Positions 2,578 through 12,616 of a stretch of DNA of 14,503 nt are shown here, one piece after another; within the stretch, counting starts at the first letter, position 1, and every line of letters begins with the position of its first letter. The stretch covers positions 1-14,503 of the forward strand of contig DEUO01000135.1 in the NCBI GenBank assembly GCA_002362595.1. Reading direction: 5' to 3'. Made by a program: the position numbers and the translations under genes. Source of the DNA: Caryophanales bacterium UBA3260 (GTDB taxonomy: Bacteria; Bacillota_I; Bacilli_A; RF39; UBA660). The notes under the pieces were generated by a model. It saw nothing but the letters and a program-made list of their open reading frames with translations. It ran no database searches and was not told where the DNA came from.

Positions 2578-2608
2578 AAATCTTAAGAATTTTTTTCTTA
2601 AGATTTTT
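2576..2608. terminator. Bidirectional terminator between convergent methyltransferase gene and mraY
   Basis: A near-perfect 14-bp stem (2576-2589 with 2595-2608), core TCTTAAGA, around a T5 loop. A-rich and T-rich flanks let it work on both strands. It overlaps the last bases of both convergent genes. Confidence 0.8.
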
Positions 2609-3600
2609 TATAACCATACGCCATATGTTATAGCAGCCATTGCTAGAAGTAAACCTACAACATAGAAAACTTTTACGATAGTTGCTTCTGGCCAACCTAG
2701 TTGTTCAAAATGGTGATGTAGGGGAGCCATTAAAAATATTTTCTTTTTAAAATATATAATTGATATTAATTGAATTAATGATGATAGTGCTTCGACTGCA
2801 AAGACGCCACCAACTAATGCTAGTGATAATTCATGTTTAGTTAATATTGCAGTAGCGGCAAGAGCACCACCTAAAGCAAGGCTTCCTGTATCTCCCATAA
2901 ATACTTTTGCAGGATAAGTATTAAATAGTAAGAAACCTAATAAAGTACCAACAAGGACGAAACAGAAAATTCCAACTTCTTGATTTCCTTCCATCCATGT
3001 TGCATTCCATGCAAGCATTCCATATGCTAAAAAAGCAATAGCTGATAAGCCGCCAGCCAGTCCATCTAAGCCATCTGTAATATTAACAGCATTAGAAGTG
3101 CCGACAAGTAAGAATAAAATAAATAAACCATAGAACCAACGTAAATCAATATTTATACCTAAACTAGATATTTCTAAAGTAGGAGAACCACCATTTGTAA
3201 TATAAATATAGAAGAAAGCTAAAGCGATAGCCATTTGACATAACAATTTAAAACTAATACTTAATCCTTTATTATTATGAAATTTAATCTTTATATAATC
3301 ATCTAATAATCCTAATAAACCATAACTGGCAAAGACAATTAAGATAATTATTAAATTATAAGATAAATCAATACTTCCTTTAAACTTTAATAATAGTAAA
3401 GTAAGTATAGTTGGCAGGATAAATATTAAACCACCTAATGTTGGTGTTCCATTCTTAGCTAGATGTCTTTCACCAATAGTAGTACTAACATTTTGACCAA
3501 ATTTAAATTTCTTTAATAATGGTATGAGGATTAATCCAGCTATAATAGAGAGGATGAAACCTAACATCATAGCCATAGCTGCTTTTGCTAGAACAAGCAT
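2608..3600 (-). CDS. mraY: Phospho-N-acetylmuramoyl-pentapeptide transferase (lipid I synthase)
   Basis: The 330-residue polytopic membrane enzyme transfers phospho-MurNAc-pentapeptide from UDP to undecaprenyl phosphate, making lipid I at the inner face of the membrane. Hallmarks are GTPTLGG (51-57), the aspartate pair in LLDDYIK (D100, D101), NITDGLDG (173-180), the MGDTGS loop and the C-terminal APLHHHFE. About ten hydrophobic segments and the length match MraY. AGAGGTG precedes the ATG at 3598-3600. It lies downstream of the interrupted PBP gene on the same strand, the order seen in dcw-type clusters (spoVD/ftsI before mraY). If the PBP transcript is blocked by the inserted element, mraY needs its own promoter; a candidate lies just upstream. 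Confidence 0.97.
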   Translation of the reverse strand: MLVLAKAAMAMMLGFILSIIAGLILIPLLKKFKFGQNVSTTIGERHLAKNGTPTLGGLIFILPTILTLLLLKFKGSIDLSYNLIIILIVFASYGLLGLLDDYIKIKFHNNKGLSISFKLLCQMAIALAFFYIYITNGGSPTLEISSLGINIDLRWFYGLFILFLLVGTSNAVNITDGLDGLAGGLSAIAFLAYGMLAWNATWMEGNQEVGIFCFVLVGTLLGFLLFNTYPAKVFMGDTGSLALGGALAATAILTKHELSLALVGGVFAVEALSSLIQLISIIYFKKKIFLMAPLHHHFEQLGWPEATIVKVFYVVGLLLAMAAITYGVWL

Positions 3601-3741: not shown

Positions 3742-4605
3742 TTAACCTAACATTATCTTTATAGTAGAATTTTCTTTTATATATTCTCCTTCTTTAGGTT
3801 CTTGATAGATAATAGTATCTCCAGTACCACTATATTCTATTTGAAAACCTTTTAGAATAGATAATGCTTCTTTTTTAGTATATCCTAATGCATTAGGACA
3901 TTTTACATATTTAGTATCTAACCAAGTATATTCTCTTGGAGTTACTTCTTTACTTGGTTTTAAGTCTTTTATACTTATAATATCTTTCATTATGTTTTTA
4001 GCTATTGGAGCAGATACAGTACCACCATATTGAGTTATTCCTTTAGGATAGTCTACGGCGACATATACTACATATTCTGGTTTGTCTGCAGGAAGAAAGC
4101 CCATGAAACTTAATATATAGTTTCCACTCATATATACACCATTATTTACTTTTTGAGCTGTTCCAGTTTTACCACCTACACGATAGTTTTCTATGTATGC
4201 ATTTTTTCCTGTACCTGATGATACAACACTTTCTAAGGTGAATCTTACCATTTCTGATGTTTCTTTACTAATAACATCTCTTACTTTATGAGGTGATTTA
4301 GACATTATTATATTGTTCGTCTCTGGTTCTGTAAGATATTTTACAATGTAAGGAGTATATAATGTACCACCATTTATTGCAGCAGAGACACCTGTTACTT
4401 GTTGAATAGGAGTAACACTTATTCCTTGACCGAAAGAGATAGTTGCTTGTTCTACAGGACCGATATTTTCTTTTTTGAACATGATACCATGAGATTCACC
4501 ATTTAGATCAATTCCAGTTTTTTCTGTAAATCCAAAATCTTTAACATATTTGTATAATCGATCTGTACCTAGTTTTTGGCCCATTACTACAAAGCCAGGG
4601 TTCAT
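3742..4605 (-). pseudogene. C-terminal half of interrupted penicillin-binding protein (KTG motif and PASTA domain)
   Basis: The 287-codon reading frame is the downstream half of a class B PBP transpeptidase of FtsI/SpoVD type. It begins NPGFVVMGQKLG, the sequence that normally follows the SxN motif, and contains GGKTGTAQ (K146-T-G148 of the fragment), a YGGTVSAP segment and one C-terminal PASTA domain (about 229-287). The SxxK and SxN motifs and the membrane anchor are missing; they are encoded at 11573-12616. The apparent ATG at 4603-4605 belongs to the element arm and has no ribosome binding site, and an in-frame TAA lies 8 codons upstream of it, so this half is probably not translated by itself. 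Genomic sequence is 3742-4602. Joined precisely to the other half it gives 634 residues with KTG at about 493. A single PASTA domain and the neighbouring mraY favour a SpoVD-like identity, but FtsI is possible. Confidence 0.9.
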
Positions 4606-4629
4606 TCTGGTCGATACGAGAACATTTTA
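4601..4629 (+). repeat. Left attachment junction: core TT plus 27-nt element arm
   Basis: The core TT (4601-4602) follows PBP-coding DNA. The arm 4603-4629 ends in AGAACATTTTA (4619-4629) and matches the inverted right arm at 20-21 of 27 positions, including this identical 11-mer and ATTCT/CTTCT next to the core. Both arms have equal length and spacing from the core, as expected for P and P' half-sites bound by serine integrases. Confidence 0.8.
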
Positions 4630-4682
4630 TTAGTTATTATTTTTTGTATAATATTTTTTCTATATATTTAAACTAAACTAAT

Positions 4683-4717
4683 AGTCGATTTAAAAGGCTT
4701 AGCTTGAGTAGTATAAT
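4683..4717 (+). promoter_or_regulatory. Promoter and candidate operator of the regulator gene
   Basis: TATAAT at 4712-4717 is a consensus -10; the -35 position (about 4689-4694, TTTAAA) is weak. The motif AGTCGATT (4683-4690) overlaps that -35. The same motif, in a slightly longer shared context (TAAYAGTCGATTKA), recurs at 5356-5363, 20 bp before the -10 of the amidase gene versus 21 bp here. This placement fits an XRE-family repressor that controls itself and its neighbour. Confidence 0.45.
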
Positions 4718-4742
4718 TGTATTACAGAAGAGGAGATTATTT

Positions 4743-5345
4743 ATGGATAATCAGAAATTTGGAAAGTTAATTACAAAATTAAGAAAAGAAAAAGGTTTAA
4801 CTCAAAAGGAACTTGCAGAAAAATTATATGTTACAGATAAAGCAGTTAGCAAATGGGAAAGAGGATTGAGTTTTCCAGATATAGAGTTGTTATTACCAAT
4901 AGCTGATTTATTTTCAATTTCAGTTTTAGAATTACTTAAAGGTGAAAGAAATACAGATATTAAATTAGATAATAATTTAAATGAAAATGAAATTGTAATT
5001 GAAACATTAAAAAATTCAAAAAATATAATTAAAAGTAAATTTATGATTCCGAAATGGATAAAAGTTATACTATGTATTATTTTTATTTGGATTTCTTTTT
5101 ACATGGTTGATTATATTTGTGTTAGTAAATATTTTTCTGAGCCTATATTTTCAATTTCAATTAATTCTAATAAAGTACAAAATGGTGATGCTGATTATAT
5201 TGAAAAAAATTATGTTGGACTTGGTTATAGTTTTTATACAAGAGGTCAAATAGATGAAGAAAAAAGTAAATATGTTATTCATTATGGGGAGATAAAAATA
5301 ATAAATATTAAAGTAAAAGATTTTTTTAAAGGCGTTACACAGTAA
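4743..5345 (+). CDS. Membrane-anchored XRE-family transcriptional regulator
   Basis: The 200-residue protein starts at the ATG at 4743, supported by AGGAG at 4731-4735; a longer reading from a TTG at 4704 would begin upstream of the -10 box and is rejected. Residues 6-62 form a Cro/CI-type helix-turn-helix (KLRKEKGLTQKELAEKL, then AVSKWERG at 34-41 as recognition region). One transmembrane helix follows at about 104-122, then an outside tail of about 78 residues. That tail (VDYIC at 122-126, PIF at 134-136, YVGLGY at 157-162) resembles the three small membrane proteins encoded at 8956, 10830 and 11168. The likely role is one-component sensing at the membrane and control of element genes, starting with itself and the amidase. 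The ligand is unknown. Confidence 0.8.
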   Translation: MDNQKFGKLITKLRKEKGLTQKELAEKLYVTDKAVSKWERGLSFPDIELLLPIADLFSISVLELLKGERNTDIKLDNNLNENEIVIETLKNSKNIIKSKFMIPKWIKVILCIIFIWISFYMVDYICVSKYFSEPIFSISINSNKVQNGDADYIEKNYVGLGYSFYTRGQIDEEKSKYVIHYGEIKIINIKVKDFFKGVTQ

Positions 5346-5355
5346 CTCTACTAAC

Positions 5356-5389
5356 AGTCGATTGATTTTATTTCTTACTCTATTATATT
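5356..5389 (+). promoter_or_regulatory. Promoter and candidate operator of the amidase gene
   Basis: TTGATT (5362-5367), a 16-bp spacer and TATATT (5384-5389) form a plausible promoter starting 11 nt after the regulator stop. AGTCGATT (5356-5363) overlaps the -35, matching the arrangement before the regulator gene. Confidence 0.45.
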
Positions 5390-5413
5390 CTTAAATTATA
5401 AAGGAGTTATTCT

Positions 5414-5464
5414 ATGAAAAAGCGATGGTTATATTTATTAGTGAAAAAAAATTATACAAATTGA
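5414..5464 (+). CDS. Possible 16-residue leader ORF before the amidase gene
   Basis: ATG at 5414 follows a strong AAAGGAG at a good distance and encodes MKKRWLYLLVKKNYTN before a TGA at 5462-5464. That stop overlaps the GAAAGGA ribosome site of the amidase gene, whose ATG is at 5479, so translation of the two could be coupled. It may be a leader peptide or the remnant of a small membrane protein gene. Nothing in the peptide identifies a function, and its expression is unproven. Confidence 0.35.
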   Translation: MKKRWLYLLVKKNYTN

Positions 5465-5478
5465 AAGGATGATAAAAA

Positions 5479-6621
5479 ATGAAAAAAGGTATATTATTTT
5501 TAGGTATTATGTGTACTTTAATTAGTAGTACTGGCTTAATCAATCAAGTTAACGCATTAGGAAATACATCTGATATAATAAAAGCAGAATCAAAAAAGGA
5601 TTATAAAGAGTATTGTAATTCATTATTATTAGATGGATTAGGAAATGTTAAAAGAAATGAAGTAATTTTAATAAACGGAGTTGAAAATCCATTGTATTGT
5701 ACATTTGAAAACAAAACAGATTCTTTGCAAAAAATACAAAATAAAGTTCCAAAAATATTGGCGACTATTGCTAAGAGATATTCTTTGGAACCAATAAATG
5801 AATATAATTGGCAATCTTATAAGGATGGAATGTTTATGTTATTAGAAGAAACAGAAGAATTTGGAGAGAGAAGTGAAGAATTCAGAATATTGGCAGCATT
5901 TTTTGATGTATATGAGGATTATGATAAGAATCAAGAAATCTTAGATCTTGTAAATAAAATCAATTTAAAACAAAAAAGTTTTAATGAAAATGCAAATGAT
6001 GGTATTGAGTTAGGCATGTTATTACCATATTATGCACCACTATCAAAGAATGCAAGTAGAATTGTTTCAAAAACATCAATGGCAAAAAAGATACATGTTC
6101 CTTCTGCCGTTACATATGCAACAAATCATGCGACAAATCCGAATAAAGCTGCGTATTACTATTTTTCCAGAGGGGATTGCACTAACTTTACGTCTCAGAT
6201 TCTAGAAGCTACTGGTGTTCAACAGGCTGTATATGATAGTGAATATTCTGGTTGGTGGCATAAAGTTACTAACACAGGTTTTTTAGGCTCAAAAGAACAT
6301 AAGCATTCACGTTCTTGGACAATGGCAGATACATTTGCAAGATATATGGGAGTAGGATATTCAACAACAAATCATGAATCATTTTCGTCTAATTTACAAG
6401 CAGGTGATTTTATTGCATTGGATAAGACAAATAATGGAAGTTGGGATCACATGGGGTTTGTGACTGAAACTGGTGGTGGTGTGTGTACCAGTACTGGTAA
6501 TTTTATTAATTATAGAGTTGCGCAGCATACAAAGAATTATCATGAATGGTTAACTTCTGATAAAAATGGATGGGAACTAGCCGGAGCAGATGGTGGAAAA
6601 TACGCTCGAGTTAGAAGATAA
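5479..6621 (+). CDS. Secreted protein with C-terminal amidase domain (Amidase_6 type)
   Basis: The 380-residue protein has a signal peptide (1 to about 26, ending VNA), a variable region of about 180 residues, and a C-terminal papain-like amidase domain at about 205-378. That domain has the nucleophile C234 in RGDCTNFTSQ and the catalytic histidine H324 in SWDHMGFV. These motifs match the putative amidase domain (Pfam Amidase_6) found in secreted Firmicute proteins, thought to cut amide bonds in peptides or cell-wall stem peptides; the true substrate is unknown. GAAAGGATGAT precedes the ATG. It lies directly after the membrane regulator, has its own promoter with the shared motif, and is the first cargo gene of the element. 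An exported enzyme that acts on the wall or on neighbouring cells is the simplest inference. Confidence 0.8.
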   Translation: MKKGILFLGIMCTLISSTGLINQVNALGNTSDIIKAESKKDYKEYCNSLLLDGLGNVKRNEVILINGVENPLYCTFENKTDSLQKIQNKVPKILATIAKRYSLEPINEYNWQSYKDGMFMLLEETEEFGERSEEFRILAAFFDVYEDYDKNQEILDLVNKINLKQKSFNENANDGIELGMLLPYYAPLSKNASRIVSKTSMAKKIHVPSAVTYATNHATNPNKAAYYYFSRGDCTNFTSQILEATGVQQAVYDSEYSGWWHKVTNTGFLGSKEHKHSRSWTMADTFARYMGVGYSTTNHESFSSNLQAGDFIALDKTNNGSWDHMGFVTETGGGVCTSTGNFINYRVAQHTKNYHEWLTSDKNGWELAGADGGKYARVRR

Positions 6622-6940
6622 TATTTTGTTAATTATTGGTATTTAGTATTGTATTATAAATGTCTAAGGAATACTTTATAAATATAAAGTAAAATTTAAT
6701 TTTTTATAATAGAAATGGTATTAAATTTATTTAACAAAATATAAAATTAATTATTTTATATATAATGTTGAAGTTTTTATCTAAAAATTTGATTTACAAG
6801 CAGACTAGAAATACTTTGCTTTTTATATTGCTAAATATAAGTTAATTAAATTCATTATAATTCAGTTTTAGTAATTAATTATTGCGTTCTATTTTTAAAA
6901 AAATTGCATATATTTCAAGCAAGAATATAGGAGGATTTTA
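6622..6940 (+). other. 319-bp intergenic region: weak hairpin, possible decayed att site, promoter of recombinase unit
   Basis: No gene is seen. TACTTTATA/TATAAAGTA (6672-6680 and 6683-6691) can form an all-AU hairpin, a weak terminator candidate because its T tract begins about 10 nt later. 6761-6789 matches the right element arm plus TT at 18 of 29 positions and may be an old attachment site. TAGAAATACTTT (6806-6817) and a following TTATATTG also occur in the 8801 repeat. TATAAT at 6856-6861 is a -10 candidate for the recombinase pair, without a good -35. AGGAGG at 6929-6934 serves the next gene. Confidence 0.4.
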
Positions 6941-7156
6941 ATGCTTAGAAATGAAGAAAATTTGGAATATAAATTTAGTACTAAAAAAATGCCTTTAGAG
7001 TATAAATTGTTAGAATGGAGACTAATTATAAATAGAGAATTATATGAAGAGAAAGTTATTGAACTTGATGTGTTTAGTGAAATGGAAAAAAGTATTTTAG
7101 GAAGGTTAACAAAGATAAGAAATGATTATAATAACAGGATAGCTGAGGATTGTTAA
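6941..7156 (+). CDS. Small charged protein preceding the recombinase (unknown; accessory or directionality-factor candidate)
   Basis: A 71-residue soluble, strongly charged and probably helical protein with no recognised domain. A strong AGGAGG (6929-6934) supports the ATG at 6941. Its TAA overlaps the recombinase ATG by one base (TAATG, 7154-7158), so the two are almost certainly co-translated. Small ORFs upstream of large serine recombinases in Firmicute elements are common and some act as accessory factors, including recombination directionality factors that allow excision. No motif here proves that role. The central segment (about 30-60) has the look of short helical hairpin domains seen in other small element proteins, but this is only an impression. 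Confidence 0.7.
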   Translation: MLRNEENLEYKFSTKKMPLEYKLLEWRLIINRELYEEKVIELDVFSEMEKSILGRLTKIRNDYNNRIAEDC

Positions 7157-8760
7157 TGGATATAAAAAAAGCAAGGGTAGATTTAAGATTAGGGAAGACT
7201 ATTTATGATATGCCTCTAAAAGTAGCTTATTATGCTAGGGTTTCTACAGATAAAGATGATCAATTAAATTCATTAGAAAATCAACAAAATTATTTTGAAG
7301 AAATGATAAGAGAAAATAAAAATTGGATTTTTGTTGGTGGGTATATAGATGAAGGAATTAGTGGAACAGCTGTAAAAAATAGAATAGAATTTCTTAATAT
7401 GATCGAAGCATCATCTGCTGGTAAAATTGATTTGATACTAACAAAAGAAATATCTAGATTTTCAAGAAATACAGTTGATAGTATTAAATATACTGAATAT
7501 TTATTAAAGCAAGGGACGATTGTTTATTTTATATCAGATAATCTTAATACTATAGGGGAAGATGCAGAGTTTAGATTAACCATAATGTCTAGCTTAGCAC
7601 AAGATGAGGTTAGAAAGTTATCTGAAAGAGTAAAGTTTGGAATAAACAGAATGATTAAGGATAGAAAACTTATAGGTGGAAATCTAACTGGATATTATAA
7701 AAAGGACGGAAAATATGAGATAAATGAAAAAGAAGCACCACTTATAAGGTATCTATTTGAAACTTATGCAACTGGAAAGGTTGGATTTAAAAAGATAGGA
7801 GAAGAACTTGCTAAAATGGGATATCTTAATTCTAAAGGTGAACCATATTCACAGACAAGTATGGCGAAATTTTTAACTAATCCCAGATATAAAGGATATT
7901 ATACAGCAAGACTTACTGAAGTTGAGGATTATAAAACTCATAAGAAAAAGAAAGTTGATAAGGTAAATCAAATAATAGAAAAAGATGATAGAATTCCTGC
8001 TATTGTTTCAGAAGAATTATGGGATAAAGCAAATGCCTTACATGAAAAGAGAAAAAAACTTCCTTCAAGACACATTCTTAATCAACAAGAATTTATAGAA
8101 AAATCAAAATATACTTGTAAAATAAGATGTATGCATTGTGGAGCTATATATATTAGAAATGGTGGTAGCAATAGACAAAGTAATCCTACTTGGAGTTGTA
8201 AAACTTATAAAGTATCAGGAAAAAAGTATTGTGAGTCTCCGATAATAAAAGAAAGTTATTTAGATAAGGTTATGATTGGAATAATTGATGAATTTATTAG
8301 CAATAAAAAGAACTATCTTGATAATGTTATAAGCGAGTACAAGAATATTATTGAACGAAATTGTGAAAAGAAAAGTAGAGAAGATTATTATAGAGAAATA
8401 GATATTTTAAATAAACAAAAAGATAAACTATTAGATCTAAGTCTTAAAGGTATGATTAGTGATACAGAGTTTAAAAAAAGAAATGACAATTTTAATAGTC
8501 AAATCTTTGAAATAGAAAATAAAATCAAAAGTATTAAAAACAAAGATGAAGAAATGAAAATACTAGAGGATAAATTAAAAGAACTAAGTAATGTATTAAC
8601 TAAAAAGGTTAATGTAAAAGAAGAATTAGCTCAGCTTATAAATATCCTTGTAGAAAGAATAGAAATAACTAAAATAAATAATGATAGAAAACATTTGAAA
8701 ATGGCTGTATATTTTAATTTTAATACAGATATAATTGATATGGAATTAGATATACATTAA
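7156..8760 (+). CDS. Large serine recombinase (integrase/excisionase of the element)
   Basis: The 534-residue protein has the full large-serine-recombinase layout. The catalytic resolvase domain (about 21-165) has nucleophile S30 in YYARVSTDK, the conserved DEGISGT (65-71) and the arginine-rich ISRFSRN (99-105). The recombinase domain follows at about 170-300, then a zinc ribbon with C325-x-x-C328, C348 and C359, then a coiled coil at about 395-490. These enzymes cut attP and attB with a 2-bp stagger and join them without homology or replication; excision needs a partner factor. The ATG at 7156 is chosen over the TTG at 7150 because it overlaps the previous stop and follows GAGG. No disabling change is visible. 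The gene ends two bases before an attachment-like sequence, the usual position for attP. Confidence 0.95.
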   Translation: MDIKKARVDLRLGKTIYDMPLKVAYYARVSTDKDDQLNSLENQQNYFEEMIRENKNWIFVGGYIDEGISGTAVKNRIEFLNMIEASSAGKIDLILTKEISRFSRNTVDSIKYTEYLLKQGTIVYFISDNLNTIGEDAEFRLTIMSSLAQDEVRKLSERVKFGINRMIKDRKLIGGNLTGYYKKDGKYEINEKEAPLIRYLFETYATGKVGFKKIGEELAKMGYLNSKGEPYSQTSMAKFLTNPRYKGYYTARLTEVEDYKTHKKKKVDKVNQIIEKDDRIPAIVSEELWDKANALHEKRKKLPSRHILNQQEFIEKSKYTCKIRCMHCGAIYIRNGGSNRQSNPTWSCKTYKVSGKKYCESPIIKESYLDKVMIGIIDEFISNKKNYLDNVISEYKNIIERNCEKKSREDYYREIDILNKQKDKLLDLSLKGMISDTEFKKRNDNFNSQIFEIENKIKSIKNKDEEMKILEDKLKELSNVLTKKVNVKEELAQLINILVERIEITKINNDRKHLKMAVYFNFNTDIIDMELDIH

Positions 8761-8762
8761 TT

Positions 8763-8818
8763 TAGAATGTTCTTGTGTTAATTATGATATTTATTCTAAT
8801 TTATATAGAAATACTTTA
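8763..8818 (+). repeat. Internal attP-like sequence after the recombinase gene
   Basis: 8763-8789 matches the right element arm (11544-11570) at 21 of 27 positions, including 14 consecutive bases AATGTTCTTGTGTT. It is followed by TT (8790-8791) at exactly the core position. The next 27 bases (8792-8818) match the left arm at 17 of 27, including ATTCT beside the core and TTTA at the far end. Arm-core-arm in the same orientation as the element ends fits a decayed P'-P site from stacked integrations. Confidence 0.6.
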
Positions 8819-8913
8819 TCGATGATTATATTGAATGTTATTAAGTTATATGATATATTTTAATTGTAAGAATACTTGAATTATATGTGCATCTTATTAT
8901 TTATTAAAAAGTG
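8801..8913 (+). repeat. Direct repeat copy 1: promoter region of the first small membrane protein
   Basis: This about 113-bp segment recurs with small differences at 9374-9481. It includes a promoter TTGAAT (8831-8836), 17-bp spacer, TATATT (8854-8859), identical in layout in both copies, and a shared leader ending in an A-rich stretch before GTG. Each copy begins within an attachment-like sequence. Confidence 0.7.
8831..8859 (+). promoter_or_regulatory. Promoter of the 8956 small membrane protein gene
   Basis: TTGAAT at 8831-8836 and TATATT at 8854-8859 are 17 bp apart. The leader to the GTG start is about 90 nt. Both boxes and the spacing are preserved in the second copy at 9398-9426. Confidence 0.5.
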
Positions 8914-8955
8914 CTGTTTTTATCCTGATACTAGGTTATAAAAGGAAGTGTAGTT

Positions 8956-9282
8956 GTGAAAAAGAAGATGTCTTCGAATACAAAAAAGAAGTCTAAAAAG
9001 AAAATAATTTTAACTATAGTTTTATCGCTGATATTAATTTGGACAGTGTGTTTTTGTACAGATTGGTATTGTATGAAAAGAAATAATAAGCCTGTATTTA
9101 TTGTTTATAATACCTATTGTTGGGATGGAGGAACTACTATTTATTATGGCATTGGTTATAAATGGATAAAGTATCATGTACTTCCTTCTTCAGCACGAGG
9201 TAATACCGATTTTCAATATTGTGAAGGGATTGCTTTAAAACCATGGTTTGCTGATGATTTTGCAGGATTTGAGTGCGAGTGA
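8956..9282 (+). CDS. Small membrane protein, paralogue A
   Basis: The 108-residue protein has a Lys-rich cytoplasmic start (1-16), one transmembrane helix (about 17-34) and an outside domain of about 70 residues with DWYC (36-39), KPVF, DGGT (57-60), YYGIGYKWIKY (63-73) and an acidic tail WFADDFAGFECE. The DGGT..YYGxGYKxIKY pattern occurs in small exported or membrane proteins of clostridia and relatives that have no known function. The GTG start is chosen because AAAGGAAGTG precedes it at the same distance as before the ATG of paralogue C. It is the sole gene between its own promoter and a terminator. Paralogues B and C lie at 10830 and 11168. It may protect against, anchor or sense the element's secreted products; this is inference. 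Confidence 0.8.
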   Translation: MKKKMSSNTKKKSKKKIILTIVLSLILIWTVCFCTDWYCMKRNNKPVFIVYNTYCWDGGTTIYYGIGYKWIKYHVLPSSARGNTDFQYCEGIALKPWFADDFAGFECE

Positions 9283-9289
9283 AAGGAAG

Positions 9290-9313
9290 ACTATACAATT
9301 TTGTATAGTTTTT
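9290..9313 (+). terminator. Terminator after paralogue A
   Basis: ACTATACAA (9290-9298) pairs with TTGTATAGT (9301-9309) and runs into TTTTT. The same 20-nt hairpin ends the last gene of the element at 11498-11517. Confidence 0.8.
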
Positions 9314-9336
9314 CTATGAAATTAGATACACATTTA

Positions 9337-9391
9337 TTGTAAGGTATTGCGATGGTTATAATATTCATTTTAATTATATAGAAAAGCTTTA
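9337..9391 (+). repeat. Second, more decayed attP-like sequence
   Basis: The stretch from the terminator hairpin to TT at 9364-9365 can be aligned with the right end of the element (terminator to core at 11571-11572) with small gaps: both read TTTTT, TATGRAA/GTAGATA, then an arm. The arm itself matches at only about 15 of 27 positions. After the TT comes CATT and, 13 bases on, ATATAGAAAAGCTTTA, which corresponds to the left-arm-like half at 8792-8818. Taken alone it would be weak; the matching terminator and the adjoining direct repeat make it credible. Confidence 0.45.
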
Positions 9392-9481
9392 ATAATATTG
9401 AATGTTATTAAGTTATATGTTATATTTTAATTGTAAGAATACTTGGGTATATGTGCATCTTATTTTTTATTAAAAAAAGTG
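9374..9481 (+). repeat. Direct repeat copy 2 with promoter, upstream of the peptidase operon
   Basis: Near copy of 8801-8913, with two identical stretches of more than 20 bases. TTGAAT (9398-9403), 17 bp, TATATT (9421-9426) keeps the promoter, so paralogue A and the peptidase unit probably share the same control. Confidence 0.7.
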
Positions 9482-9640
9482 TTATTTTTTGATATTAATT
9501 GTAAATATATTAATAAAATCGTGAAATGGAGGTGGAATCTTTACTTTTGATAAATATATTTATGTTAATAATATATAGGAAGGATTAATTAACCTATAAA
9601 GATTTATTTAATTTTTATAGATTGATTATATAAGGAAAAT

Positions 9641-10870
9641 ATGAAAAAGAAAATTTTTTCAATAATTTTAGTTTTATTTGTGGCATTTATTATTTTTTCA
9701 GATAAGGTGTGTGCTTGGTATGCACCAAGTGGCAACAACACTGCTCTTGTTGTTGGAGCGAGTTATAGTGATGGCAGAAATTCAGCAGAACACTCAAATA
9801 ATACATATTCTACATATCAATCAATGGGATTGACTTCAAAGAAATTTTTTAATCCAGCTATTGGAGACCTTAAAGGTAAACATTTTCCAGCTGTTTCTTA
9901 TTTAGAAAGTGGTATTATATATTTTAGTGGTCATGGAAATAATCATAATATGAATTATAATACTTTCGATATATCAGATTGTTCACATAATGGTGATAAT
10001 TATATCGGCATTGGTTCTTATAATAATAGTAAAACTGCTTTTATAGAATATGCGGGATGTAAAACAGCAGAAGGATCAAGTAATATTACTGAATATTCGC
10101 AATATGTTGGAGTTAATATTACTATGGGGTGGACTACAGATTTATATGAAGACTCGTTTAAAAATTGGAACAAAAGATTTAACAATAAAATAAAAGATAA
10201 GGCGACATCTGTTGACTCTGCAGCTAAATCAGCTAGTAATTATATTTATGTTCATAATGAAGTAAAAAATTATAAAGTATATGGGTATGGTGATACTAAT
10301 CCTTGGTATTGGATTTATGGAAATAGCAGTTCTAAAAGTAAATCACAAACTGGGCAAGTGTATAATAATGGTTATAATTTAGAGAGTAAAAATGGTAAAT
10401 CTTTTTATTTATTAGATAATCAAGAAGAATTAGATACAAAAGTTGATAATTTTATTAATAATGAAATTGGCTCTTCTTTTAATAGAGATAATTATAAGCT
10501 AGAAATAAACGGAAATGATGTTAAATATTTTGATTATGTTTTATATTATGATGATATAAGAACTAATTTAGGATATACTGTTTCTGTAGATAAAACTGGG
10601 ATAACTAAATTATATGATAATATGAATGGTTTAGAAGAAAAAGATGCTTTAAATACTATTTCTAACGTTTCTGGTAGATATAATAAAATAGATAAAATTT
10701 CATATAGAGCTAAAATAATAAATGAAAATCGTAATAAAAAAGAAATAAAGAATATAAGTGACGAAATAAAATTCTATGATTTTGAATCATCTAAACCTTA
10801 TTATATTTTTAATGTAAGGAGTGTTATTGATGATGCAGAGGCATACTACGGATACCAAAAAGAAGTCTAA
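9641..10870 (+). CDS. Secreted caspase-fold-like (clan CD) cysteine peptidase, putative
   Basis: The 409-residue protein has a signal peptide (1 to about 25, VCA then WYAPS). TALVVGASYSDG (34-45) resembles the first strand of caspase-like folds. IIYFSGHGN (92-100) holds the expected catalytic H98, and FIEYAGCKTAEG (134-145) the expected nucleophile C140. The hydrophobic strand, then His-Gly, then a second strand ending in Cys is the pattern of clan CD peptidases (caspase, clostripain, gingipain, CHAT). The later part (about 240-409) has no recognised domain. Its substrate is unknown. TAAGGA precedes the ATG. The last 41 bases overlap the start of paralogue B, and that overlap contains DNA alike to the 5' ends of the small-protein genes, so the original C-terminus may have been replaced by a fusion or rearrangement. 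Confidence 0.65.
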   Translation: MKKKIFSIILVLFVAFIIFSDKVCAWYAPSGNNTALVVGASYSDGRNSAEHSNNTYSTYQSMGLTSKKFFNPAIGDLKGKHFPAVSYLESGIIYFSGHGNNHNMNYNTFDISDCSHNGDNYIGIGSYNNSKTAFIEYAGCKTAEGSSNITEYSQYVGVNITMGWTTDLYEDSFKNWNKRFNNKIKDKATSVDSAAKSASNYIYVHNEVKNYKVYGYGDTNPWYWIYGNSSSKSKSQTGQVYNNGYNLESKNGKSFYLLDNQEELDTKVDNFINNEIGSSFNRDNYKLEINGNDVKYFDYVLYYDDIRTNLGYTVSVDKTGITKLYDNMNGLEEKDALNTISNVSGRYNKIDKISYRAKIINENRNKKEIKNISDEIKFYDFESSKPYYIFNVRSVIDDAEAYYGYQKEV

Positions 10871-11153
10871 AAAGAAAATAATATTAATTATAGTTTTGTC
10901 ATTAATATTTATTTGGACAGTGTGTTTTTGTACCGATTGGTATTGCATGAAAAATAATAATAATCCCGTATTTGTTGTTTATAAGGATTGGTATTTTGAC
11001 GGAGGAACTATTGTTTATTACGGTGTTGGGTACAAATGGATTAAATATCACCGAATTCCTTCATCTTCAATAGGTTATTCTTCACCATTCTGTGATGGGA
11101 TTGCATTAAAGCCATGGTTTGCTGATGATTTTGCGGGATTTGAGTGCGAGTAA
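10830..11153 (+). CDS. Small membrane protein, paralogue B
   Basis: This about 107-residue paralogue of the 8956 and 11168 products has a Lys-rich start (KKKSKKK), one transmembrane helix with IILIIVLSLIFIW, then DWYCM, NPVF, DGGT, YYGVGYKWIKYH and the tail WFADDFAGFECE. The reading frame extends up to a GTG at 10821, but that codon lies inside the ribosome site AAGGAGTG (10816-10823). The ATG at 10830 (or the next, 10833) is therefore preferred. It begins inside the peptidase gene and should be co-translated with it. Compared with paralogues A and C the first residues differ (MMQRHTTDT instead of M..MSSNT), as expected if this end was remodelled by the overlap. Function unknown. Confidence 0.8.
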   Translation: MMQRHTTDTKKKSKKKIILIIVLSLIFIWTVCFCTDWYCMKNNNNPVFVVYKDWYFDGGTIVYYGVGYKWIKYHRIPSSSIGYSSPFCDGIALKPWFADDFAGFECE

Positions 11154-11167
11154 AAGGAAGTGAGTTT

Positions 11168-11491
11168 ATGAAAAATGAGATGTCTTCGAATACTAAAAAG
11201 AGGTCTAAAAAGAAAATAATATTAATTATAGTTTTGTCATTAATATTTATTTGGATGATATGCTTTTGTGTTGATTGGTATTGTATGAAAAAGAATGATA
11301 AACCTGCATTTGTTTTTTTAGATAACTATTATTTGGACACAGGAACTATTGTTTATTATAGTCTTGGTTATAAATGGATTAAGTATCATGCATTTCCTTC
11401 GTCCTCAAAAGATTATTCTTCGTCATTTTGTGATGGGATTGCAGTAAAACCATTGTTTGTTGATGACTTTGCAGGTTCCGAGTGCGAGTAA
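11168..11491 (+). CDS. Small membrane protein, paralogue C
   Basis: The third paralogue has 107 residues: MKNEMSSNTKKRSKKK, one transmembrane helix, then VDWYCM, KPAF, DTGT in place of DGGT, YYSLGYKWIKYH and the tail LFVDDFAGSECE. It is the most changed copy (YYSLGY for YYGxGY; PLFVDD for PWFADD), so it may have a different partner. The ATG at 11168 follows AAAAGGAAGTGAG; a longer frame from 11144 has no ribosome site and overlaps paralogue B. Only 14 bases separate it from paralogue B, and it is followed by the element's last terminator. Recent tandem duplication is likely because the 5' halves of B and C are nearly identical in DNA. Function unknown. Confidence 0.8.
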   Translation: MKNEMSSNTKKRSKKKIILIIVLSLIFIWMICFCVDWYCMKKNDKPAFVFLDNYYLDTGTIVYYSLGYKWIKYHAFPSSSKDYSSSFCDGIAVKPLFVDDFAGSECE

Positions 11492-11495
11492 AAAG

Positions 11496-11521
11496 AAACT
11501 ATACAATTTTGTATAGTTTTT
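11496..11521. terminator. Bidirectional terminator at the right end of the element
   Basis: ACTATACAA (11498-11506) and TTGTATAGT (11509-11517) form a compact hairpin followed by TTTTT on the plus strand and by TTTCTTTTT on the minus strand. It can end both the cargo transcript and the PBP transcript that enters the element from the right. Confidence 0.75.
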
Positions 11522-11542
11522 ATATGGAAGTAGATATTAAAT

Positions 11543-12616
11543 TTAAAATGTTCTTGTGTTGACTAGAAGATTACAGGAGTTTTCAACGACATTTAGAAAT
11601 GTTTCGTTACCATGACCGCCACTTTTCCAACATTTAATACGAGAACCATCGACATTAATACTACCACCATCATAGTAATGATCTTCAAATAAATTAATAG
11701 TTTTTTCTTCTAAAGAAGCAGCTAGAGTAATTATTTTAAAAGTTGAACCTGGTTCATAATTTTTCCATATTGGTAAATTACGATTGATAGTATTTGTATC
11801 GTAATCTTGATAATTATTAGAATCAAAAGTAGGACGAGATGCCATAGCTAGTATTTCTCCAGTATTAGGATCCATAACAATTGATAGAGAAGATTCAGGA
11901 GAATATTTAGTATCAGCATTTTTTAATTCTTTTTCAACGGATAGTTGAATATCAATGTCAATTGTTAGATAGATATCTATGCCATTTTGAGATTTTTCAT
12001 ATACTTCGTTTGTTTTTAGACGATTCCCTTTACCATCAGATGTATATTTTATTGAACCATTTTTACCAGTTAGATATTTGTCGTATTTTAATTCCAGTCC
12101 AGATAATCCTTGATTATCTATACCAACATATCCTAAAACATGTGATAGTACATCACCATATGGATAATATCTTTTTGATTCTTTCATAAGATAGAGGCCA
12201 TCTATATTAAGTTCTTCTATTTTATCAGCGATAGAACTATCTAGTTGTCTTCCTTCAGGATTAACTTTTTCTAAGGAAGTTCTTTTTGTTAAATGTTTGT
12301 AGATATTATCATAGTTACAGTTTAGTATATCACTTAGTTTTTTTGCTGTTGTTTCTTTGTCTTTTATTTGGTTAGGTACAACATATAGAGTAGTAGTTGT
12401 AATATTAGTAGCTAGTATTTTACCATTACGGTCATAGATACGGCCACGATCAGCTGTTATAGGTAGATTTCTTTGCCATAAGTTTTCTGCTAGTTTATTT
12501 AATTTGTTATAGTTAAATACTTGTATATAGAATATACGGATTATGATGATAATAAAAAGGATTATTATGCATGTGAAGAGAAATTTAATACGAAATTGTT
12601 TGTCTTTTATAAACAT
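11543..12616 (-). pseudogene. N-terminal half of interrupted penicillin-binding protein (anchor, dimerisation domain, SxxK and SxN)
   Basis: This 357-codon frame starts at the ATG at 12614-12616 with a cytoplasmic tail and membrane anchor (about 11-31). The PBP dimerisation domain follows, with RGRIYDRNG (57-65), and then the first part of the transpeptidase domain with the nucleophile S291 in STFK (291-294) and the SxN motif S347-C-N349. After N349 the frame runs into the element arm, adds LLVNTRTF and stops. KTG and the PASTA domain are encoded at 3742-4602. Class B PBPs need all three motifs to crosslink peptidoglycan, so this fragment should be inactive, though it could still be made and inserted in the membrane. 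The start context GGTGA is only moderate. Excision would give N349 followed by P of the other half. Confidence 0.9.
11544..11572 (+). repeat. Right attachment junction: 27-nt element arm plus core TT
   Basis: The arm 11544-11570 is the imperfect inverse of 4603-4629, beginning TAAAATGTTCT and ending next to TT (11571-11572). The PBP codons for ..ENSC lie just beyond. The arm also supplies the eight non-native codons and stop (LLVNTRTF) that end the N-terminal PBP reading frame. Confidence 0.8.

Follow-up and report, generated by a model that had tools for sequence, protein, structure and literature searches.

The window analyzed here, the whole stretch of 14,503 nucleotides from contig DEUO01000135.1 of Caryophanales bacterium UBA3260, carries a penicillin-binding protein (PBP) gene, spoVD, that is interrupted at its SxN codon by a mobile element encoding a large serine recombinase (LSR). 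Judged by sequence comparison, the same interruption recurs at four fixed sites of spoVD in dozens of species, and the LSRs of these elements fall into groups that follow the target site. The arrangement is quite likely to represent a skin-type sporulation-gene-intervening element in a new target, one that would be excised in the doomed mother cell.

Interruption of spoVD at four fixed sites

A sequence-only reading of the window had proposed that a SpoVD-like PBP gene is split at its active site by an element whose precise excision should rebuild it, and the analysis bears out each of these points. The halves lie on the same strand, their AA copies 6,970 bp apart, and the N part (348 codons) and C part (286 codons) rejoin to 634 codons. 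Joining at the AA core, where the junction reads VVENSCNPGFVV, gives back both the frame and the SxN motif. The break divides the Pfam transpeptidase domain, the N part matching profile positions 4-105 and the C part, which also has PASTA, positions 104-299; on the NCBIfam SpoVD profile (TIGR02214) the N part occupies positions 4-344 and the C part 346-635. Taken singly on these adjoining stretches the halves score 364 and 341 bits, the cut-off being 688; three intact relatives score 713, 719 and 715 bits. Because these whole relatives exceed the SpoVD cut-off, the target in the window is identified as spoVD. A two-subunit split protein was rejected on reading the sequence: SxxK and KTG lie on separate pieces and the C piece has no membrane start.

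Centred exactly on AA, the two ends of the element make an inverted repeat that pairs at 20 of 26 positions; the next best in-frame core pairs at 7, and random 26-mers over all elements tested at 7.5 +/- 2.35.

An intact gene, which the sequence-only reading had suggested seeking in related genomes, is indeed present there. A species-genome scan with the window N part as query returned 26 loci, all from uncultured bacteria (Bacilli, Bacillales, Erysipelotrichaceae, Firmicutes or Tenericutes). The gene is whole in 18 of these, with mraY following it in 17 (tblastn), cut by the contig in one and broken in seven (L011, L014, L020, L022, L024, L025 and L026).

A larger sample came from a single uncultured family of gut Bacilli, that of G001 (the genome of locus L001), and comprised 291 genomes. 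SpoVD scored above cut-off in 149 of them, and about 159 were taken as carrying an approximately full-length copy, namely all except 132 whose best E value exceeded ~1e-195. These 132 were searched with residues 1-347 (N) and 348-634 (C; limits 1e-40 and 1e-53), and the N part was present in 77. A sequence-checked break in spoVD was found in 66 of the 291 genomes, always at one of four positions: site A in SxxK (TF-K; 12 genomes), site B in SxN (SC-N; 31 genomes), which is the site of the window itself, site C (PI-QQ; 22 genomes) and site D (FGQG; one genome). The other 11 N parts comprise ten that are cut by contig ends or lack a site call and one, in G229, that is unbroken. Where a script flag and the printed sequence disagreed, break status was taken from the sequence: L022, L024, L040, L041, L120 and L138 are broken (A or C ends), and L139 (site B), L046 and L051 (both site A) carry substitutions, not breaks.

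Seventeen genomes seem to hold more than one element in spoVD, 16 of the 66 and G265 (A and B). In these 16 the C part begins at a later site (B then C or D in ten, A then C in six), according to match positions that were partly sequence-checked. Two elements were read inside a single contig in L026 (A and B) and L046 (B and C). G251 and G071 have three elements each, with breaks at A, B and C that leave spoVD in four pieces, on two and three contigs respectively.

Where both ends were read, the core is AA at sites A and B and CA at site C, and the rejoined products read TFK (A), SCNPGF (B) and PIQQ or PIQ (C). The dyad averages 15.6 of 26 across 21 rows, compared with the random background given above; this mean is biased upward because cores were chosen for best dyad among motif matches, and it includes a mispaired row for L129 (site D), whose real shared block is GGGCAAGGT.

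Recombinase phylogeny and other interrupted genes

A spoVD piece lies beside 25 of the 30 best LSR loci of the family. In three more (L166, L171 and L185) a spoVD N part is found on the same contig, L181 is next to dacB, and the contig of L169 stops where the locus does. An order-level draw added 27 new genomes with a match, and all 14 loci examined adjoin a spoVD piece. At class level such an LSR occurs in 21 of 395 genomes, 20 of them already in the family sample; the sole addition, L244, has a flank in which no spoVD piece is seen.

In a tree of 43 LSRs, the 22 belonging to spoVD elements form one clade (SH-like approximate likelihood-ratio test, SH-aLRT, 100), within which A, B and C each occupy one side of a branch and D lies beside B. 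The clade excludes other LSRs from two genomes, among them the ones next to spoIVA and to a LysM amidase gene. A tree of 75 LSRs, which left out near-identical sequences and five long-branch rows, likewise places each group on one side of a branch: B (n=23, support 84), C (n=8, 100), A (n=5, 100) and dacB (n=7, 99), with one LSR of no known place beside B. In it, L171 was given the label B, and L160, L162, L164, L170 and L181 received new labels, all assigned manually according to position on the contig or the neighbouring piece. The spoVD and dacB LSRs are jointly supported at 92, and the exclusion of dacB from the spoVD LSRs is not resolved in that tree. These topologies indicate that LSR groups follow target site.

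An assembly or binning artefact was considered as an explanation for the split genes. Every genome is a draft, and one bin, G004, looks mixed, with one intact and one split SpoVD and 8 PBP matches. Many genomes nonetheless carry both element ends on one contig, identical codons are hit in many assemblies and LSR phylogeny tracks site, and an artefact is rejected.

Interruption also extends to other genes. In 7 genomes, elements whose LSRs are related split the D,D-carboxypeptidase gene dacB at SxxK (L208, reverse strand, 6459-6701, with L188; L209 with L192; L187, L189-L191 and L197), both halves lying on one contig in two of them. The gene was named by eye from its place before spmA/spmB-like genes, its carboxypeptidase assignment coming from NCBIfam matches below cut-offs. 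Of 80 genomes, 8 have spoIVA split at a common place (ATPase positions ~120-128), and for two of these the loci read show an LSR alongside (split entries L091, L080 and L090; G247, G017, G282, G061, G268 and G236); L091 carries both halves, which rejoin near TPW. Another LSR group seems to split a gene on the opposite strand, for an SsuA-like ABC substrate-binding protein, at L193-L196, L198, L199, L201 and L202; this was judged mostly by eye, as was the SsuA-like assignment, for which a single NCBIfam match, under the cut-off, came from one of the two pieces tested.

Two genomes, G009 and G014 (1.3 and 1.6 Mb), have 15 LSR-domain matches each, compared with 0-4 in the other 13; in these genomes LysM/Amidase_3 genes beside LSRs (L079, L092 and L095) look broken in the amidase domain.

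Contents of the element and searches for related forms

The serine recombinase of the element has an open reading frame (ORF) and the domains of an LSR (Table 1). A short ORF resembling the 71-aa ORF of the window precedes 18 of 21 spoVD-element LSRs, as judged by eye, and on this sequence evidence it is the likeliest candidate for a directionality factor. The window LSR opposes spoVD in orientation, as do L160 and L170; the other 21 spoVD-element LSRs compared run with the gene. An identity with the SCCmec recombinases CcrB/CcrC was rejected at 131 and 118 bits, far under the 900-bit cut-off.

Table 1. Features of the spoVD locus and its intervening element in the window
Feature	Position	Strand	Description
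spoVD 5' part	11573..12616	minus	membrane anchor, dimerisation domain, SxxK; ends S-C of SxN; Pfam PBP_dimer and Transpeptidase
spoVD 3' part	3742..4602	minus	starts N-P-G, then KTG, PASTA; Pfam Transpeptidase 104-299 and PASTA
intervening element	4603..11572	no strand	6,970 bp, counting one copy of the AA core; from in-frame core search
attL	11545..11598	minus	core AA 11571-11572
attR	4575..4628	minus	core AA 4601-4602; element-side arm pairs with attL arm, 20/26
large serine recombinase	7150..8760	plus	536 aa, antisense to spoVD; Pfam Resolvase, Recombinase, Zn_ribbon_recom
71-aa ORF, candidate directionality factor	6941..7156	plus	overlaps LSR start; no Pfam match
HTH_3 regulator	4740..5345	plus	Pfam
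Amidase_6 protein, cargo	5479..6621	plus	Pfam
409-aa ORF, cargo	9641..10870	plus	no family found
three repeated short ORFs, cargo	8956..9282 (plus), 10821-11153, 11144-11491		repeat family D1
mraY	2608..3600	minus	downstream neighbour of spoVD; name from earlier note and sequence

No phage structural gene scored above Pfam cut-off among the five element ORFs first scanned or the further ORFs (Pfam only), and the cargo received no defence-system assignment beyond an HTH resemblance and one marginal match. For the 409-aa ORF, a search of solved structures gave nothing better than E 0.1. The start of this ORF is signal-like, and with its SGHG...GC pattern it looks caspase/gingipain-like by eye, a label that no library supports.

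A search of IMG/VR with the window LSR gave 14 pattern matches with no relative among them, and a site-C LSR search gave two loci. On one IMG/VR contig (L228, 2439-4422) a related LSR lies directly before a piece that by eye is D,D-carboxypeptidase-like, perhaps split near SxN. Phage records with LSR matches numbered 346, all below 60% identity, the best (43%, a 7.1-kb record) being without a spoVD piece; plasmids yielded four short matches, each covering 1-4% of the element.

Function, alternative readings and known systems

In Bacillus subtilis, spoVD is under sigmaE control and has a role in the spore cortex. In the gut bacteria studied here the gene is probably needed only during sporulation. 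Under the excision reading, an LSR would have joined the attP of the element to an attB at the SxN codon of spoVD; since the gene would not be needed in vegetative growth, the split would be harmless then. In the mother cell the LSR, with a directionality factor, would cut the element out at the AA core and so rebuild spoVD for cortex synthesis, and the forespore would retain the element. A mother-cell gene would thus be a safe harbour, because loss in the mother cell is not inherited.

Several lines of evidence suggest that function has been kept. Frame damage, which the sequence-only reading had named as a sign to look for, did not appear: 16 split N parts have no stop within their first 293-296 codons. 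Two site-B split copies differ by a nonsynonymous rate (dN) of 0.058 and a synonymous rate (dS) of 0.72, and a C-split and an intact copy by 0.011 and 0.60; only the closest pairs were used because many pairs are near dS saturation, and L043, out of register, was disregarded. The same reading had raised a second PBP set; in 15 related genomes the remaining PBPs are mostly long unbroken frames of other PBPs; a paralogous class-B PBP of at least 699 aa occurs in 21 of 22 rows, the exception (552 aa) beginning 615 bases into its contig. SpoIVA is above cut-off in 76 of 80 genomes. SigE-, SigG- and SigK-type proteins were found in sampled relatives (four genomes), SigK being over cut-off in two of three genomes tested and the SigE- and SigG-type proteins falling below their strict cut-offs although they are the best matches. 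Upstream of spoVD, 17 of 31 loci have a sigmaE-like motif, placed at -41 to -45 in 14 cases, compared with 2.05 (maximum 6) in shuffles; the loci are related and so not independent.

Other findings weigh against programmed excision. No excised junction was seen, and two attP patterns found no match in viral contigs. No N part was obtained from 55 of the 132 genomes searched for halves, owing to gene loss or incomplete bins, and some may have lost spoVD. The window spoVD has no sigmaE-like motif at the usual -41 to -45 place, and a sigma motif is not enriched upstream of the LSRs (7 of 21, 5.6 in shuffles). Two B elements (L043 and L156) show dyads of only 5 of 26. Finally, a sister LSR group (n=13) includes LSRs beside the SsuA-like transporter gene, which is not a spore gene; because of such members, the wider LSR group is not confined to spore genes.

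Some of these observations would fit a plain disruption, in which a genomic parasite inactivated spoVD in lineages abandoning sporulation and no regulated excision takes place, as the unobserved excision and the related LSRs in other genes, including the transporter gene, might suggest. This is unlikely, given that the halves are open and conserved (dN/dS 0.08 in the split-split pair), the in-frame cores are precise, and SpoIVA, spore sigma factors and the LSRs themselves are retained. Unprogrammed switching, with random exit and re-entry in growing cells so that only some can sporulate, would be consistent with the lack of sporulation-type motif enrichment upstream of the LSRs and with several contigs that stop within ~250 bases of a junction, as mixed populations would produce. 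Contig ends have other causes, however, and genes with an expected role in the mother cell (spoVD, dacB and spoIVA) are over-represented among the targets, making such switching a quite improbable account. Excision in the mother cell is the reading we prefer, and we lean slightly toward a broader form of it: one LSR group may have specialised on mother-cell PBP genes, moving among four spoVD sites and the dacB SxxK codon, so that sporulation in the family would be gated by one to several obligatory excisions and spore genes annotated as absent would partly be only interrupted. The latter point bears on the prediction of sporulation from metagenome-assembled genomes. According to Field et al. 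2024 (PMC10868615), spoVD is reduced or absent in order RF39; interruption may explain part of this scarcity, if the sampled genomes belong to RF39.

Sporulation genes and elements already named, in the available portions of the published accounts, include sigK, spsM, spoVFB, gerE and yabG, and the element vrin (PMC4191935, PMC10747680, PMC5595907). As with skin in sigK of B. subtilis and Clostridioides difficile, where a sporulation gene of the mother cell is made whole when a serine recombinase cuts the element out (PMC4191935, PMC10747680, PMC5595907), the element described here would restore its target on excision; skin, as described there, has another target gene and prophage-like content, whereas here one gene has four sites and carries as many as three elements together. 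Similar in its non-phage content is gin in gerE of B. cereus ATCC10987, which is reported to encode an LSR and a small factor, GirX (PMC5595907); unlike the present element, gin is given as 28.6 kb with three recombinases, in another gene (PMC5595907). The elements yin (yabG), vfbin (spoVFB), SPbeta (spsM) and vrin likewise lie in sporulation genes, and differ in being described, in the accounts available, as single cases in cultured strains. ICEBs1 is also a mobile element recorded in spoVD (PMC3715440), in that case as a laboratory secondary insertion whose excision was undetectable (PMC3715440). A survey of the targets of LSRs across genomes of isolates (Durrant et al. 2022) names, in the portion available, no spore PBP. 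Searches of open-licence literature turned up no title or opening abstract describing excisable elements that split spoVD, dacB or spoIVA, dacB not being a search term. The present system would allow study of how a recombinase is retargeted within one gene, and of why mother-cell genes would be safe harbours. In the accounts available, earlier intervening elements are scattered cases; here at least 66 of 291 genomes have a single gene interrupted, at four fixed positions in all, by LSRs with a phylogeny that tracks the site.

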